29,392 bases of DNA from a virus (IMGVR_UViG_3300028008_001548:1-29392), one strand, 5' to 3'. Shown: positions 1-14,624, counted from the first letter of the stretch. Notes: generated by a model from the letters alone, not told the origin. Made by a program: numbers and translations.

Positions 1-409
1 ATGTTAACCCTAGTCCGGCTCCACCCAATAATATTTTTACATCTGGAAAATGTTTCTTTATATATTCACATACAATTTGTGTACACCAGCGACTGACTTT
101 TGTGAATACACTTAATCCTATCCAAGTTGGGTTGTGTAGTTTTATCTGTTCGTGAAATACTTTTTCTAATTCACTTTTGATTAAAACAAAAATTGGTTCA
201 TCTGCTTCAACAGTATAGTCTGGAGAACTAAGTAGTGCAGCAATGACATCGTTCCATTGATCCTTTACTCTATTAAAAAAGATTACATTAGTGTCAACTG
301 CTTCTGCTATGACGTTACTATCTGTTAACTGACCTTTCAAATGAAAAGGAGCAGGAGCAGGCATTTCAACGTCCATTAATGGAACACTGCATAATAAAAT
401 ATTAACCAT
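1..409 (-). CDS. Cobalamin-binding radical SAM protein, N-terminal part (3' end off the window)
   Basis: The reading frame starts with ATG at 409, directly after the TAG of the upstream radical SAM gene, and stays open to the window edge, giving 136 visible residues. The N-terminus (MVNILLCSVPL) is the first strand of a Rossmann-like fold. Residues near 95-135 (WIGLSVFTKVSRWC, then IKKHFPDVKILLGGAGLG) match the usual end of a B12-binding domain in B12 radical SAM enzymes: IGLSvft, a helix, then hPdvkIvlGG. The CxxxCxxC cluster motif would lie further downstream and is not in the window, so the radical SAM assignment rests on the B12-like domain and on position after five radical SAM genes. 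Such enzymes often methylate unactivated carbons or rearrange substrates; the substrate here is unknown. Confidence 0.72.
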   Translation of the reverse strand, partial: MVNILLCSVPLMDVEMPAPAPFHLKGQLTDSNVIAEAVDTNVIFFNRVKDQWNDVIAALLSSPDYTVEADEPIFVLIKSELEKVFHEQIKLHNPTWIGLSVFTKVSRWCTQIVCEYIKKHFPDVKILLGGAGLGLT

Positions 410-1630
410 CTATATTTCTAACCACAGTTCAGGAAAGGTACTTACAAAGTCTTCTTTGCGATACTTGTCAGCACGTGAGCATTCTTCTTCAAAGTCTTCC
501 CAATGTTCATCATGCAAGTCTTCACTATTCATAAACGCAGTTATTTTTTCAAAATGATCTATATTAGTTTTACAACTCTTATCCGTTGCATACTCCCAAT
601 CGCCTATGTCTATACTCTTAGAATTCAATAGTTTATCAGTTATCCAATCCTTAGTATGTTTAGGCAACGCCTTTACATTATAATAAAGCGGCTCATGACA
701 ATAACCAAAATCAATTAATTCAATATACTGTCTTAAATTCTTATCCCAATACTCTACTAGCTCGGGTAGATAAGCAACATTTAATAAACTAACTGTAGTC
801 CATACTTTGTTTTTAATTACATCTCTGTTAATTGCCTTGTTCCAAAGTTTTACATTTTCAATTACATTATCAAATTTAGCTGGATGTCTTTGATAATTAA
901 AACGTTCGTGTATGTCATCTATGCTCCAATGAAATAATACCATTTTAAAATGATTTAACTTTTCAGCTACGTCTTGTTTAAAATAAGTACCATTGGTATT
1001 AAATATTAATTCTATATGTTCAGCGTGTCCACTTTCTATGCATGTATCTAGTAGTTCATAGAATGGTGGAATCATAAAAGTTTCTCCACCATACACACAT
1101 ATCTGTTTTATATTTGGTAACCATTTATCTAGTGTTTCTTTGTTTCCTGTAATTACACTGTCGTTGCGTTTATGTTTAACAAGACTTTTATCAAAGAAGT
1201 TCCACTGCTTAGAGGTTTCTTTATGTGCTTCAGTAGTCCATTGACTACTTATATAAGGATTACATATTCTACATTTGATATTACAATGACTTCCTAATTT
1301 TAAATCTAATAGTGTTGGGTGTGGATCGTTAAGTTCTTCGTTGGTAAGCTCTCTACTCATATTTAATCGTAGACTTTCTATACCAGCTGCTTCTTCTTTC
1401 CAACAATTAGCACATTCGGCTGGCTTCTCGTTGTTTAAGAATTTGCGTCTTAGTTCGTGTAAACTATCACTGTCCCATGCTTCTTTAAATCCAGCTTCAG
1501 GAAATTTAAGCACATCTTGGTCGTCATTGTGATATTGTTTACCCACTTGCCTACAACACGCTCTATATGTTCCATCAGTTTGGATTTCTATTTGTGTCCA
1601 TGGTAAACTACAAAAGTTATTGGTACTCAT
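410..1630 (-). CDS. Radical SAM protein with N-terminal twitch-type cysteine domain
   Basis: A 406-residue protein. The N-terminal domain carries C7, the pair C25-C26 and C73xxC76 followed by W77, probably binding an auxiliary iron-sulfur cluster. The radical SAM core follows, with C116xxxC120xxC123 (HCNIKCRIC) for the SAM-binding 4Fe-4S cluster and the SAM-contacting GGE at 181-183. The C-terminus ends with a TFPELW element that has counterparts in two sister genes (2762-4222 and 4215-5582). This architecture is known from N-terminal twitch radical SAM proteins, which I recall as frequent in marine phages; twitch and SPASM enzymes often modify peptides, but no substrate is known here. The start overlaps the upstream gene by 14 bases, which suggests translational coupling. 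Confidence 0.9.
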   Translation of the reverse strand: MSTNNFCSLPWTQIEIQTDGTYRACCRQVGKQYHNDDQDVLKFPEAGFKEAWDSDSLHELRRKFLNNEKPAECANCWKEEAAGIESLRLNMSRELTNEELNDPHPTLLDLKLGSHCNIKCRICNPYISSQWTTEAHKETSKQWNFFDKSLVKHKRNDSVITGNKETLDKWLPNIKQICVYGGETFMIPPFYELLDTCIESGHAEHIELIFNTNGTYFKQDVAEKLNHFKMVLFHWSIDDIHERFNYQRHPAKFDNVIENVKLWNKAINRDVIKNKVWTTVSLLNVAYLPELVEYWDKNLRQYIELIDFGYCHEPLYYNVKALPKHTKDWITDKLLNSKSIDIGDWEYATDKSCKTNIDHFEKITAFMNSEDLHDEHWEDFEEECSRADKYRKEDFVSTFPELWLEI

Positions 1631-2765
1631 TTTTGCACCGTTCTGTTCTACTTCCCATCTGTATCATCTCGTCAGTTGTATAATCTATTAGCAATGTATT
1701 ACCTTGCCTATCTTTTTTAATACCTTGCTTTGCTTGTTGTATTAATTCGTTTGTTCGCAACGGCATAAATGTATGTGTACAATAATTTAAAAATTCCGGG
1801 CATGCATTTATAATATCTTTTTCTAGTTGTATTGCTTCGTCCATCCTGCCAGGCATTACCATAAAGTAAACTTCCATGTGACCTCTATGCAATCCTTGAG
1901 CATCTCGTTCTTGTTTTTCTTTACATATGCCATCTATTATATTAGATATCTTTTCTTCGTATCTATCTATGTATTCAAAATGTATACTAATGTTTAAGTC
2001 ACTGTAGCGAACTAGCTCTCTATAATATGCAGGCAATCTGCTACCATTACTGTGCGTACTTAGTTTGTGTCCATCATCATAAATCATTTTTGCAAACTCT
2101 ATATAGTGTTTGTGTACAGTTGGTTCCCCTCCGCTTACAACAAAATTTGCCTTGCCATCCAAAAGAAATTTTTGTTTAATTAGTTGATATGCATCATTTA
2201 ACTGATCCCAATTTTTCTTTTTTTCAGTATTGTTATGTACTTCACTTGGACAATAACTACAGTTAAAGTTACAACGTCTGCCTAGTTCCCAGAACACTTG
2301 CTTGTACCCACCTAGGTGTGTTCTTTCTACTGCTGCATTATTATTATTTCCCAACGCATTCGGTCCAAGATTATATTTTTGATCTGCTGGCTGTTGCTTT
2401 AATTTAAGAAGATATTCTTTGTTTCCTATTTTTGGATTGTATTTGGGAATGAATATATCAGATCCACAACTGCAAGCTGAGATATTACAATCTATCCATT
2501 GGTCGGGTATAACAAGATAACCGTCATACACATTGCCTAGTGTTCCTGTAAAGACTTTATTAATCTTAGTTCCAGCACCACAACTAGCTAACTGTACATA
2601 TCCATCAAAGTCGATATTAATATTTTCAACGCCGGCTCCACACTTCCATCCTGAAAAATTATTAATACGCTTTGCAACAACTTCTTCTGTACTTAAATCA
2701 CTAAAGTGTCTTTGTCCATCATAAACACGAACTGGGCGACCAACTGTAAAATCATTATCTATCAT
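1617..2765 (-). CDS. Radical SAM protein with an N-terminal SPASM-like domain (permuted order)
   Basis: A 382-residue protein. The radical SAM core is in the C-terminal half: C165xxxC169xxC172 (RRCNFNCSYCPS) and SGGEP around 211-215, followed by a THSNGS strand. The first 100 residues hold a cysteine-rich auxiliary domain with C42, C62, C93, C98 and C100 around the stretch AGVENINIDFDG. The same domain, with nearly the same cysteine spacing, sits at the C-terminus of the protein encoded at 5582-6586, so the domain order differs between the two. It probably binds an extra iron-sulfur cluster. The gene overlaps the preceding one by 4 bases (ATGA) and the next by 14. The substrate is unknown. 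Confidence 0.88.
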   Translation of the reverse strand: MIDNDFTVGRPVRVYDGQRHFSDLSTEEVVAKRINNFSGWKCGAGVENINIDFDGYVQLASCGAGTKINKVFTGTLGNVYDGYLVIPDQWIDCNISACSCGSDIFIPKYNPKIGNKEYLLKLKQQPADQKYNLGPNALGNNNNAAVERTHLGGYKQVFWELGRRCNFNCSYCPSEVHNNTEKKKNWDQLNDAYQLIKQKFLLDGKANFVVSGGEPTVHKHYIEFAKMIYDDGHKLSTHSNGSRLPAYYRELVRYSDLNISIHFEYIDRYEEKISNIIDGICKEKQERDAQGLHRGHMEVYFMVMPGRMDEAIQLEKDIINACPEFLNYCTHTFMPLRTNELIQQAKQGIKKDRQGNTLLIDYTTDEMIQMGSRTERCKNEYQ

Positions 2766-4222
2766 ATGTTATGTATCTCCTCCCACTTAGCGTTTGATGT
2801 TTCTTGTACTATATTCCAAAACTCCGACATCTCTGGAAAAATATTTCTGCAATCAGTATTTTTTCTCAAATCAAGATTGTTTATAAACTTACATAATTTT
2901 TCATATTGTAATGTTGTTCCTGTTTGCGTACACTTAATAGTTGACAAGAAATTAATATATGCAGGCCATGTTGCATATGGATCATTTATATCCTGTGGGG
3001 TTCTAGTCTTGAGAATGTTTATACTCTCATTGATATAATTCATATAACTAGCTGGCAGCATTTCAACTCTATAATGGTCTGGGTCATTAACAACATTGGG
3101 TTTTAAAAATAAAGGTTTACCATATGTATCATATAGCTCAACACACCAGCGTAAGAAATCAGGCATACTGCTTATGCATAAATTGTTTATACTAGTTTGA
3201 AATCCTATTTGCAAGTCAGGAAGATCTAATTTTAGATATTCTCTAATGTTCTTTTCAAATCTATCCCACACTAGATTCATTCTAATATATTCTGCACGTT
3301 CTTTATAAGACTCAATACTTACACTAATTTCTACAGTAAAAAGTTCACATAGCCTTGGCAATCTATCTATAAACTTTTTAAAATAAGCTTCTCTAGTATT
3401 TCCATTTGTAACAAACCAAAGCAGTGGCTTACCTGGGTGAAATGATTTTTTATTAGCATGATCCCAATATCCACTGTGTGGTCGTTTGTCAACGGGAATG
3501 CTTTCCATTATATTACACAAGTTATCAAGGAACTGAGGTAGCCTAGGATTATTTATTGGCTCGCCACCTAATATACCCAACCGAAGATGATGATTAGGAT
3601 CATCTGATTGTGATAAATTAGTATTCAACCATTTCCAAAACTCACTGTTAAAGTTTTCTAAATTTTGATCATTTACTTGTACTTTTAATTTATTGTGTTC
3701 GTCCTTAGTAAAGTCCCAATCAGGATTAATACCCATTGCCCATAGATCAGTATTTGCATTTGCCCAAGTACTACTAAAGTATGGACTACAATATAAACAA
3801 CTCATGTCACAATGATTACTAAGATTTACTTCTAACATGTATGGCTTTGTGCTTCGAAGTATTGGATGTTCTATAGTAATATCTTTAATTAGTGTTTCCT
3901 CTAATGTAAGTTTGTTTATAACTTTATCATCTTGTATATCCCATCCAGTAGGAGCATTATATATTCTTGGACTCTGTACGCCTTGGTCTTCTAGTAACCA
4001 ACATGTTTCGCAACTAGAATGTCTTTGTCCTTTGAGCATTTCTAATCTACGCTCAAGCTGATATGAATCATTAAGAAAGTAATCTTCTTTAAGATTTGAT
4101 AATTGACTGACATCTTGATCTTTTAGTTTTGTTCTGCAACAAGTTCTTGCTTGATTCTTTCCAAAATCAATTACACTATATCCCCAACGGTGTGTACACA
4201 AAGAACGCTTATGGTTACTCAT
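2762..4222 (-). CDS. Radical SAM protein with N-terminal twitch-type cysteine domain
   Basis: A 486-residue protein, the longest of the radical SAM set. The N-terminal domain has C9, C28-C29 and C71xxC74-W75, the same layout as in its sisters at 410-1630 and 4215-5582. The radical SAM motif is C138xxxC142xxC145 (HCDMSCLYC), and GGEP lies at 219-222. The C-terminal region shows the shared ending (IFPEMSEFW). Extra length compared with the sisters lies mainly between the core cysteines and GGE and just after GGE. It overlaps the gene before it by 8 bases and the gene after it by 4, so all are probably translated from one message. Catalytic residues look intact; the reaction is unknown. Confidence 0.9.
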   Translation of the reverse strand: MSNHKRSLCTHRWGYSVIDFGKNQARTCCRTKLKDQDVSQLSNLKEDYFLNDSYQLERRLEMLKGQRHSSCETCWLLEDQGVQSPRIYNAPTGWDIQDDKVINKLTLEETLIKDITIEHPILRSTKPYMLEVNLSNHCDMSCLYCSPYFSSTWANANTDLWAMGINPDWDFTKDEHNKLKVQVNDQNLENFNSEFWKWLNTNLSQSDDPNHHLRLGILGGEPINNPRLPQFLDNLCNIMESIPVDKRPHSGYWDHANKKSFHPGKPLLWFVTNGNTREAYFKKFIDRLPRLCELFTVEISVSIESYKERAEYIRMNLVWDRFEKNIREYLKLDLPDLQIGFQTSINNLCISSMPDFLRWCVELYDTYGKPLFLKPNVVNDPDHYRVEMLPASYMNYINESINILKTRTPQDINDPYATWPAYINFLSTIKCTQTGTTLQYEKLCKFINNLDLRKNTDCRNIFPEMSEFWNIVQETSNAKWEEIHNI

Positions 4223-5582
4223 AATCTTTTATTGCCTCGTATAAATCAGGTATGTTAGCTTCTAACGTTTGATTTCTAATACTGTCTAGTTTTTGTGTAT
4301 GTTGTAGGAAGCTATCTTTGTTAGTCCACTCTTTACCATCTGTTACTTCTGTTTCAATATCATCTGCTAGTGCAAAATCAATTACTCCTTGATATTTTTT
4401 TATAATATGTTGTGCTAATCCAATTTCTAAATTTTTATTACACCAATCAAATAGTTCATTGTACTTGTCTACAATTTTTTGCTTGTGTGCTTTAGGATAA
4501 TTTTGAACTGTTAAGAATCTAGGCCCATGACATATATGTAAAGCCATTACTGAGTCAAATGTACTAAACCTGTTAGTGTACCACTTTACCATATCTGGTA
4601 TTTGCATTACATTGTATATTGTAATAGTTGGTGCAATTGTAGCCGAGATGTTCGTATACTTTTTTGAAAGTTCATAAAATTTATTAATGTTACGCTCAAT
4701 GATTGGCCACTTGCTTGGAAATCTAATATAATCTTGTACATCGCCTAACCCATCAATACTCATTGTCATTCTGACACGTTTGAACTTGCTCCATATATCC
4801 CATGCATTGCGTGGAATAACAAACATGTTACTGTTGTATTCTAAATTAATATTTTTTGCATAATCATTGTCTATAGCATATTGTAAAATATTCCAATACT
4901 CTTTAATAACTGTAGGCTCGCCACCTGTCATGTATATGCGATCAATGTTATGCATATTGTCTTTTAGTTGTGCTACAAATGGTTCTTTATTCCAGTCACC
5001 AATCATACTAGAATATTTTTCTCCGTCTTTGGTAATGTCGTACTTGTCGTCATAGAAATCTATTTTAGCATTACCCATTTTAACCCAGTCATCTAGCCAT
5101 AAACTACTATCGCCCGGTCCACACATTCTGCATTTTTGATTACATTTGTTTCCTAGTCTTATATCAAAATATTTTAAAGGTACTTGTGCAATATCAATAG
5201 TACCATCATCGAGTGTATTTTCTTTACACATTTCTATGTCGCCAACATACTCTTTATTCATATATGTTCTTAGACTATCTAGTCCTAGCTTTTCAGTTTC
5301 CCAGCATTGTCTACATTCGGGATGTTGCTCACCTTTTAACATACTTGCTCGAATCTCTTTTAGTAAAGGAGCATTCCTAGTCTCTTGTATTGTACTGTTA
5401 TTAGCATTATATGTTTCGCCGTTTGGCCTAATAAGTTTTCCAAAGTTATACTCTGGTCCAGTTTTTTTGCCAAACACACACTCACAACAAACTCGGTACA
5501 TACCGTTGCTGGTAATAGCACTTTGTAAAAAAGGTTTAACACAAAATGTTCCCTTTTTATGTAATGGTATATTTTCATTCAT
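4215..5582 (-). CDS. Radical SAM protein with N-terminal twitch-type cysteine domain
   Basis: A 455-residue protein. The N-terminal domain has C14, C32-C33 (with an additional C35) and C90xxC93-W94, followed by a LDSLRTYMN helix resembling GIESLRLNM in the 410-1630 product. The core motif is C147xxxC151xxC154 (KCNQKCRMCGP), with TGGEP at 219-223. The C-terminus keeps the paralogue signature (IPDLYEAI). Its ATG shares one base with the stop of the gene at 5582-6586 (TAATG), a classic coupling arrangement. It is clearly a diverged paralogue of two neighbours rather than a recent duplicate, since alignable identity is limited to motifs. The substrate is not identifiable. Confidence 0.9.
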   Translation of the reverse strand: MNENIPLHKKGTFCVKPFLQSAITSNGMYRVCCECVFGKKTGPEYNFGKLIRPNGETYNANNSTIQETRNAPLLKEIRASMLKGEQHPECRQCWETEKLGLDSLRTYMNKEYVGDIEMCKENTLDDGTIDIAQVPLKYFDIRLGNKCNQKCRMCGPGDSSLWLDDWVKMGNAKIDFYDDKYDITKDGEKYSSMIGDWNKEPFVAQLKDNMHNIDRIYMTGGEPTVIKEYWNILQYAIDNDYAKNINLEYNSNMFVIPRNAWDIWSKFKRVRMTMSIDGLGDVQDYIRFPSKWPIIERNINKFYELSKKYTNISATIAPTITIYNVMQIPDMVKWYTNRFSTFDSVMALHICHGPRFLTVQNYPKAHKQKIVDKYNELFDWCNKNLEIGLAQHIIKKYQGVIDFALADDIETEVTDGKEWTNKDSFLQHTQKLDSIRNQTLEANIPDLYEAIKDYE

Positions 5583-6586
5583 TATTCTTCAATAACCTCA
5601 TATCTATGTTCTGGCAATACTTTTTTACACATAATATCAAAGTTACAATGACAGTAACTCTTATTACATGCTACTGGCTTGGTAGGAAATTTAATTTTAT
5701 CTGGTTCGTGTATATTACCAAATGTTCCTCCTACTCTGCACCAACCTCTCCATACTGTACCGTCAAAGTCCACAATGAACTGTTCGATGCCTGCCCAGCA
5801 ATCCCAACCTTTCCAGTTGTTATTGTTGTCTGCAATAAATCTATGTGCGGAACTGTTTTGTGATAATGCGTTAACAGTGTCGTGCATATCCATGCTGCCT
5901 CTGTATAACTTAAATTCTTTTGTGTGTTTTATTTTGCTACCATACAACTTCCATTGATCATCAAATATCTTTTGTTGTTCATCTGTGTATGGGAAACGTA
6001 CTTCACCAAAGTCTATTACCAAAGGCTGGAATGCCATGCTGATGTTTTCTACTTCCATACATAGCTTCTCACTTAATGCAATACCTTTGTTGAATAATTC
6101 TGGATCAGTGTGACCCATTACATTTACGTGTGTACGACAGTAGCCTGCCATTATCTTTACTACTTCAAAGAAGTGCTCAGCATCTGCATGCTCAGGATGA
6201 AAACTTAAACACACATGATCAAAGTTATCTTTATTCTTTTCCCACCAGCGTAATGTTCTACTACCGTTGCTGATAAATCCTACGTCATGTCCAATATCTT
6301 TAATGTATTGTACAGCTTTAATAAAGTCTTTCCATAGTGTAACTTCGCCACCAGTGAACTCAAAGTAAACTTTACGTGGTGCATAGTGTTTAGCAGTAGC
6401 GTCAATGAATCCTTGAACTACTGTAAAATCATTCCAACCAAAGCTGCCGTCGTTGAGTATGCTAGGACAATACGAACAACTGTAGTTGCACATATTTCCC
6501 AAGTTCCAATTTACTACAACCCAATCACTTGCTTCTTTGTGATGATGGTCAAGTATATTATAGAAGCCTTGTTCACCTAATGCCAT
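5582..6586 (-). CDS. Radical SAM protein with C-terminal SPASM-like domain
   Basis: A 334-residue protein and the first radical SAM gene of the cluster in transcription order. The core comes first: C33xxxC37xxC40 (MCNYSCSYCPS), TGGE at 78-81 and ISNGS at 105-109. The C-terminal domain has C263, C283, C317, C322, C324 and C330 around AGIEQFIVDFDG, which is likely to hold an auxiliary cluster. The same domain is N-terminal in the protein encoded at 1617-2765. The gene starts 3 bases after the glycosyltransferase-like gene at 6590-7576, tying the radical SAM block to the sugar-related block. This is the standard order for SPASM or twitch enzymes; the substrate is unknown. Confidence 0.9.
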   Translation of the reverse strand: MALGEQGFYNILDHHHKEASDWVVVNWNLGNMCNYSCSYCPSILNDGSFGWNDFTVVQGFIDATAKHYAPRKVYFEFTGGEVTLWKDFIKAVQYIKDIGHDVGFISNGSRTLRWWEKNKDNFDHVCLSFHPEHADAEHFFEVVKIMAGYCRTHVNVMGHTDPELFNKGIALSEKLCMEVENISMAFQPLVIDFGEVRFPYTDEQQKIFDDQWKLYGSKIKHTKEFKLYRGSMDMHDTVNALSQNSSAHRFIADNNNNWKGWDCWAGIEQFIVDFDGTVWRGWCRVGGTFGNIHEPDKIKFPTKPVACNKSYCHCNFDIMCKKVLPEHRYEVIEE

Positions 6587-6589
6587 ATC

Positions 6590-7576
6590 TTATTCTAATG
6601 TATCCTCAACCTGGTCTTCTCTAATTTGAGCTCCCATGCGGCTTGGATTAATATATACTTTCTTAAAAAATCTAGATCCTTCTTTTCCTAAGTCTGCAAT
6701 TTCTAAATCTAATTTAGATCTTAAATCGTAACCAAGTCTGTTACTTTCGTTTTGTAGTGTGTCGTAATTCCAACGCATACCTGTACGTGAACATAACTGA
6801 TCACTGTCAGCCTCAAAGTTAGGTAATACATTTTCTTTATAATATTTTGTAAGCCAATCAAAGTCTCGAACATTTCTCCAGTCCCAATCTTCTCTACCAA
6901 TGTTTGTCATGTGGCACCCAAGTCTTGCACCGTATATTGCCCACAGTCCATTCTCACTGTCGTCACCAACACTCATCCAAGTAAGCAGTCGCTTGTAGTT
7001 CTTATCGTGTACTTTTTCTTTTAGTTGTAATGGATCGATAACGTCTCCGTCAACTAATCCCATCTTAACTCCTTCACGGAAACCTGCACGCCAGGCTTGT
7101 AGTGGACTCGCATTATTCATTACATCGCAATATATGTTATTCATTTGCACATAGTTGATATTCCAACAGAAGTCTACTTGGGCTCGCTTGTCGCCCGCTG
7201 GTGCATTCTCATGTGTTTGCATTCCATATACTACTTCTTTTGGCCAACACTTAATGCCTCCGTTTCCGTATACTAATCCGTTCACTGTATTTTTTCCAGC
7301 CCAACTAATAACATCTGTGTTTTTTATTTTACTCATGTCTACTTCAACACCAAAGAAATCATCCTTGACAATGTTGTCTGCATCAATAGTAATAAATCTA
7401 TCTGTTTCTGCTAGGTCGGCTGCTGCCTTATGTGCTGCATCACTGCCAAACACACCGTGGCTTCTCTTTGCCCACGGTGCTTTATTAATTAAATCGTTAT
7501 AGTTTTCATCTGCATTTGGTTCATCATAGCTAATGAACACTATATCAAATTCATTAATACTTTCCATACTACTCAT
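6590..7576 (-). CDS. Glycosyltransferase-like protein (GT-A type fold)
   Basis: A 328-residue protein. It opens with FDIVFISYDEPNADENY, then KRSHGVFG, then FITIDADNIVKDDFF with a DxD motif at D65-A-D67. This is the nucleotide-sugar and metal-binding layout of a GT-A glycosyltransferase. I recall this N-terminal pattern from proteins of marine phages and bacteria, often annotated only as glycosyltransferase. The start is supported by AAGGAG with a 5-base spacer; the alternative Met4 would lie too far from it. The Shine-Dalgarno sequence overlaps the stop of the nitroreductase-like gene upstream. The C-terminal half (from about 190) is charged and unassigned. Sugar donor and acceptor are unknown. 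Confidence 0.72.
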   Translation of the reverse strand: MSSMESINEFDIVFISYDEPNADENYNDLINKAPWAKRSHGVFGSDAAHKAAADLAETDRFITIDADNIVKDDFFGVEVDMSKIKNTDVISWAGKNTVNGLVYGNGGIKCWPKEVVYGMQTHENAPAGDKRAQVDFCWNINYVQMNNIYCDVMNNASPLQAWRAGFREGVKMGLVDGDVIDPLQLKEKVHDKNYKRLLTWMSVGDDSENGLWAIYGARLGCHMTNIGREDWDWRNVRDFDWLTKYYKENVLPNFEADSDQLCSRTGMRWNYDTLQNESNRLGYDLRSKLDLEIADLGKEGSRFFKKVYINPSRMGAQIREDQVEDTLE

Positions 7577-7581
7577 AGTGT

Positions 7582-7587
7582 CTCCTT
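7582..7587 (-). promoter_or_regulatory. Shine-Dalgarno sequence choosing the start of the 6590-7576 gene
   Basis: AAGGAG on the minus strand lies 5 bases before the ATG at 7576. It would be 14 bases from the next in-frame ATG (Met4), so it supports Met1 as the start. It overlaps the stop codon of the upstream gene ending at 7586. Confidence 0.7.
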
Positions 7588-8332
7588 AAAATCCAACAGT
7601 TGAATCAACTGGTGTACGTAATTTTGTTCCGTTTATAAATTTATATTCTTTGCCTGCTTTACTAACCCATGTTTCCAGTTCACCTTCTGTTGGCGCTAGG
7701 CTATCTATTGCCTCTGGGCCAAAACTATTAGTAAGACCTGGGAAAAAACTAATATCATCCCAATTGCCTTGCTTTCCTGGATATGTGTTAATCATATTTT
7801 CTAGTTCAGTTCCAAATCTTTCTTTGATCATTTTTGTAAATGTTTCACATTTTTCTCGACCATTTCCTTCTGCATGCATTCCATGTGTACATCCAAATGT
7901 TGCAACGCTGTATCCCATATTTAATAATGTAGAAAGTATTGCTCCGGCAACAAAGCCTTCACTTCTATCTGCTAAATGATTTTGATCTTCTGCTGATTTT
8001 CCTTCTTCTGGATTAGCCCAAGGTGTTGAAGTTCTAACACATACAAGTACTGCTGGTGCTTGTACAACTGCAAGCATGTGTTCTTTGTCATCACCGTGTT
8101 CTTCCTTATTAGTCATGTAATATATATTATCAGCTAGCCATGTACGCATCTTCATGTCTTCATCGCCTTGGCCTAAATACATCCAAAAATGAGATTTAAT
8201 ACTACATTGAGTAGGAACGTGATTTATTACTGTTGCTAAATATTCGACATCTTCATCTGGTATTGGACCTGTGTCTGAAAATAATCTTGTTGTGTGTCTA
8301 TTTTCCCATACAAGGGGATTTAATTTATTCAT
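7586..8332 (-). CDS. Nitroreductase-like flavoprotein
   Basis: A 248-residue protein resembling the nitroreductase (FMN-dependent, NAD(P)H-using) fold. The N-terminus has RHTTRLF at 12-18, matching the family's RRSxRxF element that contacts the FMN phosphate. Next come PIPDEDVEYLATVINHVPTQ (the I..e.l..il..a..aPs pattern) and SHFWMYL. At about 125-148, GFVAGAILSTLLNMGYSVATFGC matches the family's central helix and glycine region. An AGGAG sequence 9 bases upstream supports the start. Nitroreductase-fold enzymes reduce nitro groups, quinones or cyclic imines, or dehydrogenate azoline rings in peptide natural products. Which of these applies is not visible. Its position between sugar-transfer and radical SAM genes suggests a redox step in the same pathway. 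Confidence 0.65.
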   Translation of the reverse strand: MNKLNPLVWENRHTTRLFSDTGPIPDEDVEYLATVINHVPTQCSIKSHFWMYLGQGDEDMKMRTWLADNIYYMTNKEEHGDDKEHMLAVVQAPAVLVCVRTSTPWANPEEGKSAEDQNHLADRSEGFVAGAILSTLLNMGYSVATFGCTHGMHAEGNGREKCETFTKMIKERFGTELENMINTYPGKQGNWDDISFFPGLTNSFGPEAIDSLAPTEGELETWVSKAGKEYKFINGTKLRTPVDSTVGF

Positions 8333-8333
8333 C

Positions 8334-9302
8334 TTATTGTTCTCCTAAATTTATTTCTATGTTATTGTACTTGTGTACTAACAGTGGAGTATCTGGCCAA
8401 TCAAAGTTTATTTCTATCTCAAACGTTTTATTTTCAAATTGAGATCGTTCTATTTGAATTGCACCTACAAATACGTCCGGAGTCTCATTACAGACAATAA
8501 ATTTAAATAATTTAATACCAGATAGTAAATGTTTATCGGCTATAGATAAATTATTACTAACTATTAATCTATTATCCACTACGTTAATATTTATGTGACT
8601 TGGTTCGTTTGTTTTTGCAGAAGTTTGTAACAAATGTTCGTTGCGTTGGTTTTCTATTTTGAGTTCAGTTAACGACCATCCGTAATTATTAAATACGTGT
8701 TTTGAATACAGACTAATGTTGTTCCAGTCTAGTTCTTTATCTATATTCTTGTCAAGTGTTATAATTTGTTGTCCGTGTGTAAACAATTCTTTTGGATCAA
8801 GTTTAAGTGTATGTACTAGATAGTCTGGATCATTCTTTCTTGTAATATGTATATCTAATGCATTAGTTTCGTTTAATGATATTTCTGATATTGTTGCTAA
8901 ATTTTTATTTTTTCTAATTGAAGGCATATTTGCAGTTACAAGTATTTGATTTGAATTATAAAATATATTCACATACAAATCAACAGAAGAGGGAGCAACA
9001 TCTTTTGCAAACGGTACTAATTTATTATCATCTGATTCAATTATTAATACATTCCCACGGTGACTAAGTTCCCATTTGTGATTTATTAAATCCCATATCA
9101 TGCCATACTTTTTTAAGCTACTAGTACCATTGATTAATTTTTTGCATATTGGGTCAGTTGATTCAGCCTGAGTTGTATTGTTAGCAATGTTAGTAACCTT
9201 AGTACTATTAATTCTTAGTATTTTTCCATTATCATTGTTAAATACTATAAAGTACTTTCTTTTAATGTTTACTTGTGGCTCTGTAAGTGTCTCTGTGTTC
9301 AT
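8334..9302 (-). CDS. Unrecognised 322-residue protein, probably beta-rich
   Basis: I do not recognise the family. The protein has alternating hydrophobic strands (KYFIVFNND, VLIIESDD, LYVNIFYN, LIVSNNL, FKFIVCNE, FEIEINFDW) and few long helices, suggesting beta-sandwich or repeated beta domains. There is no signal peptide, transmembrane segment or obvious catalytic motif. Its start lies 41 bases inside the end of the preceding gene, in another frame. No later in-frame ATG is plausible, because the next lies about 67 codons in and would remove a well-structured N-terminus. It is embedded in the sugar and radical SAM operon, so it could be an accessory binding protein or a structural adhesin-like protein. 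The function is open. Confidence 0.75.
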   Translation of the reverse strand: MNTETLTEPQVNIKRKYFIVFNNDNGKILRINSTKVTNIANNTTQAESTDPICKKLINGTSSLKKYGMIWDLINHKWELSHRGNVLIIESDDNKLVPFAKDVAPSSVDLYVNIFYNSNQILVTANMPSIRKNKNLATISEISLNETNALDIHITRKNDPDYLVHTLKLDPKELFTHGQQIITLDKNIDKELDWNNISLYSKHVFNNYGWSLTELKIENQRNEHLLQTSAKTNEPSHININVVDNRLIVSNNLSIADKHLLSGIKLFKFIVCNETPDVFVGAIQIERSQFENKTFEIEINFDWPDTPLLVHKYNNIEINLGEQ

Positions 9303-10113
9303 TAAATATCTCTTCTGTTATAAACTCGTGTTCTCCATAGTATAGGTTAGTTCCCATTGCAAAGTTTTGAATTTTTACTTTTGCTCCTTTGCTACTCCAA
9401 ACGTTTAATCTTTCTGACCATTTATCCCACTGACCAATCACTCCATCAGTTAACGTTACTGGCATATTAATTGTATTAATAATATTATGTATTGGAGGAT
9501 GCTCGTACAATACTATTGTGTTTAGCAGACTATACATTATGTCACTGTTATAATATTCTGGGCAATGAGATTGATTGAAAAACTTTGGCATTACTTGTCT
9601 CCAATTTTGCATAAACACATCTGCTAATTTAAAAAATGCAAGTGCTAAATCTGTATCAAACTTAAAGTAAAACATATGCGAATAAACTGCATTAAGTTTG
9701 TACTCTGCTTCTATAGTCTTAACTTGTTTGTTTTTTAATACATCACCTTTAAAATCATAAGACTGATTGAAAAAGTATATGTCATGCTGATCTTTTAAAT
9801 ATTCCCATATGCTATCGTGATTTTCTTTAACAAGGCTTGCACAGTCTATTACAATGTTATGTATATATGGTGTTGCCCAGTACAACTGCCAGTCGTTAAT
9901 TCTAGTAACCTCATTACAAGGAAATGGCATGTCTACCAAATAATCAAATGCTTCTTCGTAGTGTGCAGGAACACGGTCTATGTAGTTAGTAACTAATGTA
10001 ACACTAGCATCTTTGTTATGTATTTTAATACTATATGCAAGTGCAGTTGCTTGAATATATTCAAACTCTTGCATTGCAATTATTACATAACCCTGCTCTT
10101 GTTTTTCAATCAT
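9262..10113 (-). CDS. Glycosyltransferase-fold protein with degenerate DxD motif
   Basis: A 283-residue protein whose N-terminus (GYVIIAMQEFEYIQATALAYSIK, then SVTLVTNYID) follows the opening of GT8-like nucleotide-sugar transferases. The segment where the metal-binding DxD is expected reads NIVIDCASLV: D90 is present, but the second Asp is replaced by A92. The neighbour at 10110-11006 has an intact DID at the equivalent place in LLLDIDYIV. Other shared landmarks are the following helix, the strand DIYFFNQSYDF and a later acidic/aromatic segment. The protein may be inactive, may act through a different metal ligand, or may be a binding partner of its neighbour. ATGA overlap with the upstream gene indicates coupling. 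No membrane segment is seen. Confidence 0.65.
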   Translation of the reverse strand: MIEKQEQGYVIIAMQEFEYIQATALAYSIKIHNKDASVTLVTNYIDRVPAHYEEAFDYLVDMPFPCNEVTRINDWQLYWATPYIHNIVIDCASLVKENHDSIWEYLKDQHDIYFFNQSYDFKGDVLKNKQVKTIEAEYKLNAVYSHMFYFKFDTDLALAFFKLADVFMQNWRQVMPKFFNQSHCPEYYNSDIMYSLLNTIVLYEHPPIHNIINTINMPVTLTDGVIGQWDKWSERLNVWSSKGAKVKIQNFAMGTNLYYGEHEFITEEIFNEHRDTYRATSKH

Positions 10114-11006
10114 AAAAGATACTCCGTTAGTTTTGGAATAATTCTGTCAAACGCTCTTTTATTCATAAGATGTATATCTTGATTGTTTGTTTTTACTAAA
10201 ATATTTTTCCAAACTTCTTTTGAATCATGAGATAACATAACCCATGTGTTATCTGATGTTACTTCAATAATGTCGTCTTTCTGACTCATATTAAGTAATG
10301 ATGTTCCATCAAAGTTACCTATGTTATCTTGCTCAGCAGTCATGCCCGAAAGTATATGTACTGCAATACTAACACAGTAGTCTGTTCTAAACATCTTTCT
10401 AGGAAAATTATATAGGTACTGATAGTAGTCATAATTATCTGCTACATGCGACCATGTATTAAAAAATAGTTCACTAAAGTCACTGCGATCAAAATATACA
10501 ACTGTACTCCACCACATTTTAATCCCAGCATCATATAAGAATCTTTCTAAGAAGAGCGGAGGTTCATTTCTTAATGTAGTTGCATTATCAAACATACTTA
10601 CTGAATAATCACTATCAAAATATTTTAGTAGTGTATCCGATTTAACAATGTAATCAATATCTAATAGTAGTGTTTTTTCAAATGGACTGTATTGATAGAT
10701 TTTATGTTTGTTGCTGTTATTAAATTGTGCAGTAAATTCTGTCCAAGGACTATCATAGTGTCGTCTACTGTTAGCCTTCATATTGTCATTAGTTGTTACA
10801 ATATAATCAAAACATTTTTCAATTTCTTCTGTTGAATGACTTTCTTCTAGCCAAGACAGTGAACCCTCGTCTGTAATTAAACAAACAGGTAGTTGTAGAT
10901 TCTTCTTAACAAACTTACTACTAGTAATTGCCATGTTAACATAATCTAATTGACTGTTGTTATATGCAAAAAAGCATACACCCTCTGGTGCTTGAATAGT
11001 AGGCAT
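10110..11006 (-). CDS. GT8-like glycosyltransferase
   Basis: A 298-residue protein with the layout of a GT-A nucleotide-sugar transferase. It has an opening strand (GVCFFAYNNSQLDYVNMA), LPVCLITDEGS near 39-49, and KTLLLDIDYIVKSDTLLKYF with the metal-binding DxD at D116-I-D118. Later a WWSTVVYF strand and an FNTW helix resemble the family's acceptor half. It lacks a signal peptide and membrane segments, so it probably acts in the cytoplasm on an activated sugar. It starts in a TAATG overlap with the 115-aa gene. Similar proteins occur, as far as I recall, beside tail genes in marine T4-like phages. Acceptor candidates (tail fibre, lipopolysaccharide precursor, nucleotide or peptide) cannot be separated from sequence. 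Confidence 0.7.
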   Translation of the reverse strand: MPTIQAPEGVCFFAYNNSQLDYVNMAITSSKFVKKNLQLPVCLITDEGSLSWLEESHSTEEIEKCFDYIVTTNDNMKANSRRHYDSPWTEFTAQFNNSNKHKIYQYSPFEKTLLLDIDYIVKSDTLLKYFDSDYSVSMFDNATTLRNEPPLFLERFLYDAGIKMWWSTVVYFDRSDFSELFFNTWSHVADNYDYYQYLYNFPRKMFRTDYCVSIAVHILSGMTAEQDNIGNFDGTSLLNMSQKDDIIEVTSDNTWVMLSHDSKEVWKNILVKTNNQDIHLMNKRAFDRIIPKLTEYLL

Positions 11007-11353
11007 TACCAGTCCATAATTTTCTTAATGTTTCTTGATTTCTTTAATTTTTCATTTTCAATATCAAATTCAGTAGTAGCACTAGTATATGCATTGATAA
11101 GTTTTTCTAATAGCTCAGATAAACTTTTTACTGTAATAGGATTGTTTTTGCTATCAATAACAATAGATTCCTTATGTTTTAAATCTATTAATGTTTTTAC
11201 AAAAGCAATTGTTTCGTGATCAGCAATAAACACACCACCCAAGTGATGTACGATTTGTAACTGTGCTACTCTGTTTCGAATATTTCTTTTTTGATTATTT
11301 AAAGTTAATGCATAATTACTAAAGTCTAGTGCTTTCTCGAGTCTTTCGTCCAT
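11006..11353 (-). CDS. Conserved small phage protein of unknown function
   Basis: A 115-residue protein, mostly helical and highly charged, starting MDERLEKALDFSNYALTLNN. The N-terminal pattern (MDERxEKALxFSNYxxTLNNQK) is one I recall from small uncharacterised proteins of marine T4-like phages; no function is known to me. There is no enzyme motif, signal peptide or membrane segment. The C-terminal third (ELLEKLINAYTSATTEFDIENEKLKK) could form a coiled coil. The start is clear: AAGGAG with a 6-base spacer just downstream of a strong promoter. It is the first gene of the sugar and radical SAM transcription unit. Its product might be regulatory or a scaffold, but that is speculation. Confidence 0.85.
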   Translation of the reverse strand: MDERLEKALDFSNYALTLNNQKRNIRNRVAQLQIVHHLGGVFIADHETIAFVKTLIDLKHKESIVIDSKNNPITVKSLSELLEKLINAYTSATTEFDIENEKLKKSRNIKKIMDW

Positions 11354-11372: not shown

Positions 11373-11408
11373 TATGTATATAATACACTATTTAGTAGAA
11401 TTTGTCAA
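11373..11408 (-). promoter_or_regulatory. Near-consensus sigma70-type promoter for the left transcription unit
   Basis: On the minus strand TTGACA (11403-11408) is followed by exactly 17 bases and then TATTAT (11380-11385), with a predicted start near 11373. A 20-base leader then carries AAGGAG before the ATG at 11353. The match to the bacterial housekeeping promoter is 6/6 and 5/6. It would let host RNA polymerase transcribe the 115-aa gene and everything after it without phage late factors. I see no terminator between the fibre gene ending at 11418 and this promoter. Confidence 0.8.
11389..11396 (-). promoter_or_regulatory. Late-promoter-like motif inside the sigma70 spacer
   Basis: ACTAAATA followed by GTG resembles the T4-type late element TATAAATA and matches the wider context (TAAATAGTG) of the perfect late motif at 14602-14609. 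If used, it would start RNA about 10 bases upstream of the sigma70 start and give a leader of about 30 bases. The overlap implies the two modes cannot be used at the same time on one template. Confidence 0.5.
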
Positions 11409-11417
11409 TAGGGATTT

Positions 11418-13052
11418 TTAGATTTTGTTATATCTGAATAAACCGGTGCTTTGCCATATCTCACCTGGATCAACTGGTGAACCAGTTGGTGTTTCGGTTG
11501 CAATACCCGAACCTGTTCCAGGTCCAGTGGCTGTGAATACAGTACCAGGGACATTGTCTACGGCACCTATTAATACAAAGTCAGTGTCAACAGATGTTGC
11601 GCCGCCGACTATACCAGTACCAGTTCCTCTACGTGTAGCAGTGAATATAGTGTTTACGTTATTATTAGCTGCTCCCATCTTAGTAAAGTCAGTTGTGCCT
11701 ACTGATACAATTCTGTATTGTTTTCCAGTTATAACTTGTTGTGTTAGTACACCAGTGCCTGGGTATGGTATTTCTACTTGGATATTATCATTAACAGAGA
11801 CAATTGTATATTCTTGTCCAGTTATAAAGTGTCCTGCATCCACATTTGATACAGCATGACCTCTCCAATCAAGTTGAGCATGCGATTCATTAATTGCTGG
11901 TTCTTGCCAATTAGTATCCAATGAAACATCTGGTGCAGGTATTTCTGTAAATTTATAATATGGATAACTGTCAACAGTAAATTTTGCTAAGTTAGGATCA
12001 GTTGCTAACGGAGTTGTAGCTGGTTGTACATATCCAGAGCTCAATGTTATTGGTTGAGTGATATCAAAATTATCATCAATATCTTCAACTAATATAAGTC
12101 TTACATAAATATTAAATTCAGAACCTATATCTTCTGCTCGCATCTGAAGTCTAATTCTTCTACTGTTATACTCACTGTATAAGTATACAGTTGCTTCTGT
12201 GGCAGTATTATTTGTGTATGCAAATACACCTGCGTCTAGGATAGTTCTAAAATCATCTTCACTAGCAGTTGACCCGCCACCGTATAGATACTGTAAGCCG
12301 TTGTAAAATCCATAGTTAACACCACTAGTAGCAATAACATCATAGATATTATCTGCAACTACTCTACATCCTTCTGCTCCTATTCTAATACTATCAAACT
12401 GATCAAATATACCTTCCCATACTTGATTACCCGATGATCCTCCAGGATTCATTTCTAATTCAAGTGTTAGTTCGCCACCTGCATTAAAGAAATGTCTTGC
12501 TTTATTATAACTTTGAAAAGTAAATTTATGAACTATCTCTAAGTTATTATCCCAATTAGCAGTTGTTGTAGTTGTTAATGATGCTAAGTCAAAGTTAGCC
12601 CAGTCTATTTGGTACTTGTTTTTTGGAGCTTGTCTAAACCATTGAATTTTATTTAGTATGCTGTTGTGATATGCAGCTAGTATCTCTGTTTTTGGGTAAG
12701 TAGTTAAATCTATTAAGTTATGTAAGCCTTCTACATTAGCCGATGAAATTGGATCGTCTTCGCCATGATATAATCCTGCATTCATGTATGCAGTTATTTC
12801 GTTTAAGTCTGTAGCAGTTATTAGTGTACCATCAATTACTGCTGATCCATTTTTTTGAAAACTGATAGGTGGAGTGTTAAGTGTTATTTGTCCTTGTCCC
12901 CAGCCATACCTTCTTTCAGCATCAGTGTGATGATTTGCATCATACAAGTATGCGCCACCGTCCCATATTTCATTATAATAGTCAACTAGATCTATTAGGT
13001 CTTGTGCCTTTACTTTGTCTCCAGTATTAACAGGTGTTAATGACACTGGCAT
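11418..13052 (-). CDS. Tail fibre-like virion protein with repeat modules at the C-terminus
   Basis: A 544-residue protein. The segment HHTDAERRYGWGQG near 41-54 and the strand-forming RHFFNAGGELTLELEM at 186-201 resemble structural proteins of marine T4-like phages, where a FFNxGGE element recurs. The C-terminal 135 residues are built from short repeats: a partial copy starting ITGQEYTIVS at 410-428, a full 43-residue copy at 440-482 and a shortened copy at 486-516. Related copies occur in gp6 and in the giant baseplate protein. The protein is probably part of the distal tail or fibre and could contact the host. It directly abuts the 307-aa gene upstream. There is no sign of a chaperone or enzyme domain. 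Confidence 0.7.
   Translation of the reverse strand: MPVSLTPVNTGDKVKAQDLIDLVDYYNEIWDGGAYLYDANHHTDAERRYGWGQGQITLNTPPISFQKNGSAVIDGTLITATDLNEITAYMNAGLYHGEDDPISSANVEGLHNLIDLTTYPKTEILAAYHNSILNKIQWFRQAPKNKYQIDWANFDLASLTTTTTANWDNNLEIVHKFTFQSYNKARHFFNAGGELTLELEMNPGGSSGNQVWEGIFDQFDSIRIGAEGCRVVADNIYDVIATSGVNYGFYNGLQYLYGGGSTASEDDFRTILDAGVFAYTNNTATEATVYLYSEYNSRRIRLQMRAEDIGSEFNIYVRLILVEDIDDNFDITQPITLSSGYVQPATTPLATDPNLAKFTVDSYPYYKFTEIPAPDVSLDTNWQEPAINESHAQLDWRGHAVSNVDAGHFITGQEYTIVSVNDNIQVEIPYPGTGVLTQQVITGKQYRIVSVGTTDFTKMGAANNNVNTIFTATRRGTGTGIVGGATSVDTDFVLIGAVDNVPGTVFTATGPGTGSGIATETPTGSPVDPGEIWQSTGLFRYNKI
11505..11597 (-). repeat. DTDF-type repeat module, copy B (shortened)
   Basis: Residues 486-516 of the 544-aa fibre protein: DTDFVLIGAVDNVPGTVFTA then TGPGTGSG. 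It lacks the opening G-x-x-Y-x-I strand seen in the full copies. It follows copy A after 3 residues, forming a tandem pair. Confidence 0.8.
11607..11735 (-). repeat. DTDF-type repeat module, copy A (43 residues)
   Basis: Residues 440-482 of the 544-aa fibre protein. It contains GKQYRIVSVGTTDFTKMGAA and then NTIFTATRRGTGTGIV. It has the same length and motif order as copy C at 17081-17209 and copy D at 26677-26805. Confidence 0.85.
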
Positions 13053-13976
13053 TTACTTTACTCCAACTATTACTTCAACGGTTCCTGTGTCGTCAGTTGT
13101 CTTATCTTCAACTGCTCTTCCGATAACATGTTGATATCCATACGTACTAACATTACGTGCAGATTGGCCGTGTCCAGGTGTATTACTTGTAACGATTCTA
13201 TCCCCTTTGGTAACTTTACCAACAACATTACATGGTACTCTACCAAGTAGTGCTATACCTACTGTTATGCCAGGTAATCTGCTGTTCATTAACAATGCTG
13301 GGTCTGTTGTAACAACTCCCACTGCATCTTCGTCAAGCTCTTGAGATGTTTCTGTAACTTCATCAGTTCCACCAATTTTCATAACGTGTCCAGGTCCATA
13401 TTCGTTATCCGAAGCATAAAGCTCTGCCACGTCAGCGTATCTGGCGTGTGTTGCTGTACCATGGAATACTGCCTCTTTGTTTTTATCTGTAGTTAAATTA
13501 ATACCAGGAAGAATAGTTGCACTATCTGATATAGTTACTTCTCCGTTGTTTCTAAAATAAGGTTCAATTAATGTTTCGCTTGTGTTAATAACCCAAGGTG
13601 TAGTGTCTGAACTTGTTATTGATATAATAACTCCATTTACTTTAGATACAACAACTTTATGTTTTACATTATTAGTATCCATTACTTCTGTTGTTTTTGA
13701 ATCAGAGTCTATACCAAGCCAATCATTGTTGTGTCTTATAAACAACTGCTGCTCTACTGGTTTCCACCATAGCTGACCTTCAATTGCATTATCTGGTGCG
13801 GTATCACTTGCAAAGTTTTCTAATAGTCTTACTGAATTTTGTGCTATACTTTCACCGTAGCCTACCCAGTACTTGCCTACTAGTGTTAAACTAGTGTTAG
13901 CAACATTTTGTGAGTTGTCATCGATTCTGAAATAGTCTAAAGCTCCGTTTGGATATTTTTTAATATTATATGCCAT
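13053..13976 (-). CDS. Virion/fibre protein with a G2-peptidase-like C-terminal domain
   Basis: A 307-residue protein. The first 75 residues (NTSLTLVGKYWVGYGESIAQ, then LLENFAS, then GQLWWKP) form a module I recall from many marine T4-like phage structural proteins. The C-terminal part contains ARYADVAELYASDNEYGPG, then VMKIGGTDEVT, VGVVTTDPALLMNS, ALLGRVPCNVVGKVTKGD and TSNTPGHG. This order resembles tail-fibre ends related to the peptidase G2 or intramolecular-processing type. Whether it self-cleaves is not visible. The start has AGGAG 8 bases upstream. The product is probably a fibre or tail-associated protein that works with the adjacent 200- and 544-aa proteins. Confidence 0.75.
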   Translation of the reverse strand: MAYNIKKYPNGALDYFRIDDNSQNVANTSLTLVGKYWVGYGESIAQNSVRLLENFASDTAPDNAIEGQLWWKPVEQQLFIRHNNDWLGIDSDSKTTEVMDTNNVKHKVVVSKVNGVIISITSSDTTPWVINTSETLIEPYFRNNGEVTISDSATILPGINLTTDKNKEAVFHGTATHARYADVAELYASDNEYGPGHVMKIGGTDEVTETSQELDEDAVGVVTTDPALLMNSRLPGITVGIALLGRVPCNVVGKVTKGDRIVTSNTPGHGQSARNVSTYGYQHVIGRAVEDKTTDDTGTVEVIVGVK

Positions 13977-13979
13977 AAT

Positions 13980-14582
13980 TTAAACTCCTGCTCTAATTCG
14001 TAATGTGTAAAGTATTTCTAGTTTTCTGTTCTTGCTTTTCTGAATAGGATGGAAAATTAAGTGTGTTAAGAAACTACCTTCACCTGTTGTTGAGCCTGTC
14101 ATTAGTCCAATTTCATCAAATATAAAATTAGTATCAGATATCTCATCCATTGTTGGCGAATTATCAACTGCTTGTGCATCTGCTGGAAAATTGTAATCCA
14201 ACACTGCACGACATTCTAAATCTGAATATGGTTGATTTGATGCATTGTTAACTACAAAAGTTACCGGCACTGTTAAGTCAACCGACGATGCTCCTGAATT
14301 ATCTTTACATGCAGTATACAATTGGCCTGTGGCTCCACTTACCTTTGGTTGTTTATATGTAACTGATCCGTTTGCTTCAACTGTTGATCCGCCCATTCCA
14401 AGTGCTAGTTTTGATATACCGTATGTTGTGCCGTCGCCTCCTAATGCATGTGCTACTGCAAATGCAAAGTTTTGAAAGTTTATAGCGTTATATTTGTCAA
14501 GTAGAACCTCGCCTGAATCAAAGTCTTTGATTAAAACGTGCCCTTCTACTGCGACATTTGAGTTTTCATTTAATGTTTTCAT
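13980..14582 (-). CDS. Conserved virion-associated protein (200 aa)
   Basis: A 200-residue protein with N-terminal VAVEGHVLIKDFDSGEVLLDKYNAI and AFAVAHALGGDGTTYGISKLALGMGG, a pattern I recall from marine T4-like phage proteins encoded beside baseplate and fibre genes. The rest is predicted beta-rich, with SDTNFIFDEIGLMTG near 148-162 and a C-terminal HLIFHPIQKSKNRKLEILYTLRI. No enzyme motif is seen. It may be a short fibre, a fibre connector or a baseplate component; position alone does not decide. It has its own late promoter (14602-14609) and an AAGGA Shine-Dalgarno sequence about 8 bases before the ATG. Confidence 0.7.
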   Translation of the reverse strand: MKTLNENSNVAVEGHVLIKDFDSGEVLLDKYNAINFQNFAFAVAHALGGDGTTYGISKLALGMGGSTVEANGSVTYKQPKVSGATGQLYTACKDNSGASSVDLTVPVTFVVNNASNQPYSDLECRAVLDYNFPADAQAVDNSPTMDEISDTNFIFDEIGLMTGSTTGEGSFLTHLIFHPIQKSKNRKLEILYTLRIRAGV

Positions 14583-14600
14583 TATCCTATTCCTTATACA

Positions 14601-14624
14601 CTATTTATACAAATCGTTAAATAG
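14601..14624. repeat. Inverted repeat around a late promoter
   Basis: CTATTTA (14601-14607) and TAAATAG (14618-14624) are exact inverted arms separated by 10 bases. The minus-strand late promoter overlaps one arm, so the other arm presents a TTAAATAG-like element on the plus strand. There is no following T-run on the minus strand, so a terminator is unlikely. Confidence 0.6.
14602..14609 (-). promoter_or_regulatory. T4-type late promoter (TATAAATA)
   Basis: A perfect TATAAATA on the minus strand in the 44-base gap before the 200-aa gene. With T4 spacing the transcript would start near 14596, leaving a leader of about 14 bases that begins at an AAGGA Shine-Dalgarno sequence (14591-14595). It would be read by phage-modified polymerase late in infection and drive the three fibre-type genes down to 11418. 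Confidence 0.8.

Follow-up and report, generated by a model that had tools for sequence, protein, structure and literature searches.

A row of radical SAM genes linked to a predicted glycosyltransferase in T4-like environmental phages

Radical SAM genes at the locus

The virus record IMGVR_UViG_3300028008_001548:1-29392 of IMG/VR (29,392 bases, hereafter the window) carries, within positions 1-6586, five intact radical S-adenosylmethionine (SAM) genes on the minus strand and the 5' part of a sixth that is cut by the contig end (Table 1). Few other catalysts match the chemistry of radical SAM enzymes, and we know of no dense radical SAM pathways from phages. Open reading frames were called mechanically; successive genes of the row overlap by 1, 8, 4 and 14 bases, whilst S1 and the truncated gene abut. 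The latter is complete in L005 (L005:16178-17680), a related contig nearly identical to the window (97-100% identity among operon proteins), where it encodes 500 amino acids comprising a B12-binding-like region upstream of a radical SAM core (PF04055, 71.4 bits; motif CVRKCDFC). The six consecutive radical SAM genes described in a first-pass annotation of the window are thereby accounted for, and its designation of the sixth as a probable cobalamin enzyme fits the domain order, with cobalamin binding predicted from a domain that scores 21.7 bits in L005 and 30.9 bits in the L006 relative against the PF02310 cut-off of 32.1. The B12-type enzyme of L057 has a long extra N-terminal region. Extension of the contig past position 1 through L005 also adds a seventh radical SAM gene (NF033640, 264 bits), which follows the B12-type gene after three unknown genes.

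The CxxxCxxC and GGE motifs were read in all five complete genes, four of which pass the PF04055 gathering cut-off of 29.5; S3 scores 20.0 bits there, yet 211 bits in NF033640 (N_Twi_rSAM, curated cut-off 170). Membership of S1, S3 and S4 in this last family, shared by the seventh enzyme of L005, bears out the three N-terminal twitch enzymes proposed earlier. These are old paralogues, not recent copies (23-25% identity in the two pairs compared). S5c (23.5 bits) and S2c (25.4 bits) are not members. In some N_Twi enzymes of related loci (L006:14549-16192 and L019:13263-14942), the N terminus is extended by a region bearing the recurrent motif 'R.DMV.DPECP'.

Table 1. Features of the radical SAM operon and its surroundings in the window.
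Feature	Coordinates	Strand	Basis or remark
B12-binding-type radical SAM, 5' part	2..409	-	PF02310 23.2 bits, under cut-off
S1, N_Twi_rSAM (N-terminal twitch and radical SAM)	410..1630	-	NF033640 314, PF13186 30.8, PF04055 39.7 bits
S2c, radical SAM with auxiliary Fe-S domain at N terminus	1617..2765	-	PF04055 54.3 bits
S3, divergent N_Twi_rSAM	2762..4222	-	NF033640 211 bits; CDMSCLYC, GGE
S4, N_Twi_rSAM	4215..5582	-	NF033640 354, PF04055 37.1 bits
S5c, first radical SAM of the row, auxiliary Fe-S domain at C terminus	5582..6586	-	PF04055 40 bits
GTa, predicted GT-A-fold glycosyltransferase, slot anchor	6590..7576	-	AlphaFold2 model, pLDDT (predicted local distance difference test) 90.7; invariant DxD
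Nitroreductase-like	7586..8332	-	PF00881 21.2 bits, under cut-off 23.5
u9, operon protein	8334..9302	-	Position conserved; no family match
u10, glycogenin/GT8-like	9262..10113	-	Profile against PDB glycogenin, E 1e-4
u11, probable GT8-like glycosyltransferase	10110..11006	-	Profile against glycogenin, E 0.14; D116xD118 invariant
u12, small protein, first gene of operon	11006..11353	-	Conserved position behind promoter
Sigma-70 promoter of operon, TTGACA-N17-TATTAT	11380..11408	-	Conserved across relatives
u13, tf14, u15, tail-fibre-region genes upstream of operon	11418..14582	-	tf14 PHROG tail/structural matches; u15 phrog_11259
TATAAATA, T4-late-type motif upstream of u15	14602..14609	-	Sole copy in window; marks separate tail transcription unit

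S5c and S2c form a mirrored pair. The C-terminal domain of S5c aligns to the N-terminal domain of S2c (36% identity, E 5e-14), and the S2c of L039 aligns with S5c in both domains with their order swapped, in agreement with the earlier description of two enzymes of opposite domain order. The SPASM-like label attached to them was not borne out, as PF13186 (SPASM) was unmatched in either protein up to E 0.1; the common cysteine-rich domain, which has five invariant cysteines in S5c, is therefore named the auxiliary iron-sulfur (Fe-S) domain, its cysteines suggesting that it holds an Fe-S cluster.

The row is genuine and under purifying selection. Ratios of nonsynonymous to synonymous substitution (dN/dS) for the five complete genes were 0.05-0.12 relative to L005, and 0.05-0.17 relative to L036 where dS was unsaturated. 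Frequent loss of the core cysteines, which the first-pass annotation had named as a sign against a pathway, was not seen; CxxxCxxC is retained in 388 of 392 complete homologues, and short fragments account for two of the four exceptions.

Recurrence and exchange of the cassette

A search with S5c returned 106 relatives on viral contigs, of which 80 loci were retrieved; collapsing S5c at 95% identity left 49 loci with at least 8 kb of downstream sequence. All loci were collected through likeness to window genes and share ancestry, hence their absolute frequencies are not population estimates and the counts are non-independent events, even with 95% duplicates removed. Every one of the 49 holds at least two radical SAM genes (median 5, maximum 9), with three or more in 43, all counts within retrieved stretches being lower bounds. 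N_Twi enzymes were present in 45, S2c in 38 (44 by a contig-wide search, counting one 95% cluster-mate contig) and a B12-type enzyme in 27. Whole contigs yielded 2-12 PF04055 matches, mainly in one island, as in a 230-kb contig with 11 in about 20 kb. The commonest core is S5c with S2c, which stands alone in the retrieved stretch of L037, L083 and L086.

Contigs L005 and L036 hold the same genes in the same order; L027 has S5c-S4-S3-S2c-S1 but lacks the B12 gene, and its row lies away from the tail genes. Such recurrence shows that the row is not a chance assembly. Outside the window, the exact S4-S3-S2c-S1 row was found in these three contigs only, and both S5c and GTa were found with many other radical SAM sets. 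The window and L006 share an S5c at 95% identity, yet the L006 cassette is quite different, and the remainder of the window cassette is, after L005, close to those of L036 and L027. The locus is thus a slot with exchange rather than one frozen pathway. The multistep pathway envisaged by the first-pass annotation stands insofar as the genes are linked and co-inherited, but the cassette is modular, and cassettes swap freely.

The cassette or the S5c-S2c core also occurs on very long viral contigs, L065 (524 kb), L082 (349 kb) and L043 (345 kb), in the last beside DNA-ligase-like and ClpP-like genes instead of tail genes. Proteins starting with 'GCSHTEG/GCSFVAG' recur in cassettes (L005:17746-18438, L027:15948-16868, L039:15994-16821 and others); by eye these are SGNH-hydrolase-like, with no convincing match in Pfam.

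A predicted glycosyltransferase anchors the slot

GTa, immediately upstream of S5c, had no family match in the databases scanned. Its structural model has a GT-A fold that best resembles glycosyltransferases (Z 10.6 to 6p61, 3.1 A over 139 residues, with B4GALNT1 and WrtF next), and the D65xD67 motif is invariant. As the IspD/MobA nucleotidyltransferases reach Z 8.6-9.3, the fold by itself is not proof, and we regard GTa as a predicted sugar transferase on the strength of its best matches.

To avoid bias towards radical SAM genes, GTa alone was utilized as a query, giving, after dereplication, 46 loci that extend sufficiently far downstream. A radical SAM gene lies downstream of GTa in 43 of these, as the very next gene in 31, and two or more do so in 27, with S5c present in only 8. 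Conversely, in 40 of 48 S5c loci, GTa is adjacent to S5c, in its vicinity or fused with it. GTa marks the cassette slot. In two lineages, L060/L061 and L078/L080, GTa and S5c constitute a single protein, with lengths of 754 and 868 amino acids. A repeat-like N-terminal region precedes GTa in L060, L072 and L078, and L084:18468-20063 encodes a 532-amino-acid protein of repeats like 'FDYSWRPDPREPPFIYVWGHKF'.

Two further putative glycosyltransferases, u10 and u11, are found with S5c in 39 of the 48 loci for which upstream sequence exists; their relation to glycogenin spans about 100 residues, with modest support for u10 and weak for u11. The nitroreductase-like gene between u9 and GTa is confined, among the S5c loci, to the window phage and L005 (best NCBIfam model PRK11053, E 0.016). 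The operon with this insertion also holds the B12-type enzyme.

The operon promoter

The first-pass annotation had read the overlapping radical SAM genes as one message. The set is co-directional, but the operon starts outside 1-6586, at u12, running from 11353 through u12, u11, u10, u9, the nitroreductase-like gene and GTa to the radical SAM row. General scans for sigma-70 promoters and terminators over this region were at or near chance level, and only comparison across relatives exposed the u12 promoter. Of the 52 loci of the GTa set, 47 match sigma-70 at 10 or more of 12 positions in the stretch just before u12, and 42 at 11 or more; among 1,803 other gene starts of these loci, the corresponding shares are 5.4% and 1.9%. 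Conservation across 39 diverged promoters is 97% for the -35 and 88% for the -10 hexamer, relative to about 50% for spacer and flanks.

The terms marine and freshwater are used here as shorthand for two sequence groups among the loci and are not taken from sample records. In the marine set, the regular form TTGAC[AT]-16/18-TA...T precedes u12 in 84% of cases, and for the remaining genes of the row the figure is 0-8%. Upstream tail genes carry a T4-late-type TAAATA instead (u15 in 82% of marine, tf14 in 89% of freshwater loci). In T4-like phage transcription, sigma-70 promoters are early and TATAAATA is late. In marine lineages the cassette is thus probably an early, possibly dual, operon separate from the tail unit. 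The promoter at 11380-11408 is close to consensus and conserved in about 70 loci amid tail genes, often with TAAATA in its spacer, which may reflect dual early and late use.

Neighbouring genes, bacterial contexts and cultured phages

Related cassettes carry an NAD-sugar epimerase, a UDP-glucose dehydrogenase, carbamoyltransferases, an FkbM methyltransferase and sulfotransferases, and that of L087 a CMP-Kdo-type cytidylyltransferase above an NCBIfam cut-off. Among 84,980 species genomes of bacteria and archaea, S5c was found in only 3, in one case on a phage contig. The other two are an Oligoflexia genome (L085), where S5c-S3-S2c-S3 has GT1 transferases and an ABC-2 exporter in its vicinity, and a Bdellovibrionaceae genome (L086), in which two flagellin genes flank S5c-S2c. 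Weaker S5c-like matches in other Bdellovibrionaceae (G023, G024 and G026; 28-33% identity) lie in other contexts, without cassette partners. In L085, an 83-amino-acid protein with a Cys/Gly-rich tail (L085:3444-3695), shortly before a radical SAM gene (L085:4675-6084) and about 6 kb before S5c, resembles with that gene a peptide-maturation pair.

A bacterial origin, suggested by hits in metagenome-assembled genomes, was mostly rejected, in that the MED685 contigs (L087 and G003:C3) are themselves phage. The region G003:C3:15000-52000 (L100-L102), on a 108-kb contig within a gammaproteobacterial metagenome-assembled genome, belongs to a T4-like phage that has the same tail row and some ten or more radical SAM genes; two of its N_Twi-type proteins are without CxxxCxxC in the assembled sequence.

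No matches to S5c, GTa or S2c were obtained among 50,697 cultured-phage records, in which S4 had only distant Vibrio phage matches (about 22%) and the B12 gene only a match in Streptomyces phage SF3 (26%). The baseplate wedge protein is nearest, among cultured phages, to those of PA5oct, Atu_ph07 and SCTP-2 (33-41% identity), which argues against a simple pelagimyophage label. A 3565-amino-acid structural protein followed by tail genes in the window would fit one side of the pelagimyophage host-recognition island, bounded by VrlC and gp14; gp14 is absent from the window.

Proposed function and alternatives

The first-pass annotation had offered a surface glycan, a virion protein or a secondary metabolite as the substrate of a multistep pathway. 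Of these, a surface glycan is best supported, due to the glycosyltransferase linkage and the GTa-S5c fusion, though the product itself is predicted. We infer that the operon tailors a glycan of the host surface in several steps early in infection, a reading to which we assign a probability of roughly 45%. GTa, u11 and u10 would act with the radical SAM enzymes on one and the same glycan, the latter supplying C-H chemistry beyond that of ordinary sugar enzymes, such as epimerisation, deoxygenation, dehydrogenation and, by the B12 enzyme, C-methylation, whilst the transferases would assemble or attach the modified sugar. S5c may work beside GTa with S2c as its partner of reversed domain order, and the remaining radical SAM enzymes would be exchangeable, altering the final structure. 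In marine lineages the most likely target would be the host cell surface, altered early such that competing phages fail to adsorb.

Several observations weigh against this proposal. The operon is placed behind tail genes; freshwater u12 genes have the late-type motif (67%) and no matches to the regular sigma-70 form, which confines the argument from early expression to marine lineages; and a TAAATA element also occurs in 43% of marine u12 promoters (background 8%), so that late expression is conceivable there as well. No sugar-nucleotide gene lies inside the window, and the DxD metal motif of u10 is degenerate in the window, though present in relatives. Moreover, folds of peptide-modifying enzymes are about as close to the S5c model as those of sugar enzymes, hence structure does not choose the substrate.

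The first of these points lead to a somewhat doubtful alternative, namely that the tailored sugar is placed on the tail fibre or adhesin of the phage itself, changing adsorption, stability or recognition. The fixed place directly behind the tail-fibre genes and the late-type motif at u12 of freshwater relatives would suit such virion glycosylation, as would the flagellin neighbours of S5c-S2c in Bdellovibrionaceae, flagellin being a protein filament. However, in marine lineages the operon is served by a host-type promoter of its own, apart from the tail genes, and the five-gene row of L027 lies off the tail row. For marine lineages only, the early promoter makes the host surface a likelier target than the virion.

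As to the fold, the S5c model is nearest to BlsE (Z 18.1, 270 residues aligned, 14% identity), an enzyme whose substrate is a sugar nucleoside; DesII, AbmM and BtrN rank lower, and SkfB (16.8), EpeE (16.0), SuiB and anSME represent the peptide-modifying side. The row could accordingly modify a virion or host protein directly, in the manner of maturases of ribosomally synthesised and post-translationally modified peptides (RiPPs), with the glycosyltransferases incidental or glycosylating the same protein. RiPP maturases and epimerases are among the closest S5c folds, and the weak relatives of the B12 enzyme include RiPP C-methyltransferases. Nonetheless, we consider direct protein modification unlikely, in that all RiPP maturase models scored under cut-off and this reading would leave unexplained why GTa is fused to S5c and why it anchors the slot; no recurrent precursor peptide was noticed, though no systematic search for one was made. 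Taken together, the neighbouring genes, the bacterial contexts and the S5c fold favour a glycan over a peptide, short of proof.

Viperins are also among the closest folds of the S5c model, and pVip and viperin are among its best partial matches (57 and 52.6 bits), which might suggest antiviral nucleotide synthesis or counter-defence. These matches span about 105 residues of the radical SAM core, whereas assignment to viperin (NF038283) or pVip takes the curated cut-off of 180 over a whole-length match. With 52.6 bits for S5c and 43.9 for S2c, confined to the core, a viperin or defence identity was rejected. The additional cysteine-rich domain of S5c and the rest of a cassette of three to nine radical SAM genes do not fit a viperin either, and we regard this explanation as barely credible.

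Comparison with known systems and implications

The expectation that phages usually carry single auxiliary enzymes, stated in the first-pass annotation, is contradicted, for this group, by published accounts of T4-like environmental phages. Pelagimyophages have radical SAM cassettes in a hypervariable host-recognition island, with glycosyltransferases read as O-chain modifiers (PMC7029224, 2020). Like the loci described here, these are T4-like aquatic phages whose island adjoins tail fibres, with GT8 alongside and radical SAM cassettes gained and lost; architecture, gene order, fusion, promoter and a proposed mechanism are given only here when set against the relevant passages of that study. 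The T4-like environmental genome TARA_ERS488813_N000010 has a similar number of radical SAM genes, 12, read as serving Fe-S cluster metabolism (PMC5332604, 2017), and relative to the section of that paper concerned, gene order and neighbours are discussed only here. If applied to our cassettes, the same interpretation would make the genes auxiliary metabolic support for Fe-S or cofactor metabolism. This is highly improbable, as the radical SAM genes are tied here to glycosyltransferases and tail genes, all models of known cofactor pathways scored under cut-off, and the cassettes vary in a way not expected of a core pathway.

S5c shares with the sugar-acting radical SAM enzymes of antibiotic pathways (BlsE, DesII, SpeY, AbmM and BtrN) a core with a C-terminal region, but unlike the BlsE-type enzymes it has its own conserved cysteine-rich domain. 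Bacterial flagellin and O-antigen islands likewise place glycosyltransferases and genes for carbamoyl, methyl and sulfo transfer by a surface filament or exporter, and such contexts include S5c-S2c themselves in L086 (flagellins) and L085 (GT1/ABC-2); by contrast, the module described here resides in phages and is dominated by radical SAM enzymes. No such module was found in the literature on twitch-domain radical SAM enzymes, flagellin glycosylation or huge phages. What is already known, as far as the cited sections extend, is the existence of large radical SAM sets or cassettes in T4-like environmental phages; what is new is the GTa anchor, the fusion, the mirrored S5c and S2c, and the promoter.

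A bolder and quite tentative possibility is that the glycosyltransferase-anchored, exchangeable radical SAM set, with its mirrored S5c and S2c, writes variable, chemically unprecedented sugars onto a surface, so that a combinatorial 'glycan coat' swapped in blocks would decide which phage infects next. Given the presence of S5c in so few species genomes, the chemistry would in that case be essentially viral.

Both the GTa-S5c fusions and the S5c-S2c pair are of a size suited to expression and assay. If glycosyltransferases are indeed coupled to a swappable radical SAM set in a phage operon, this would represent a route to new sugar chemistry and would hint at the role of many unassigned viral radical SAM 'auxiliary' genes. 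It would also make testable how large aquatic phages alter the cell or virion surface against competing phages.

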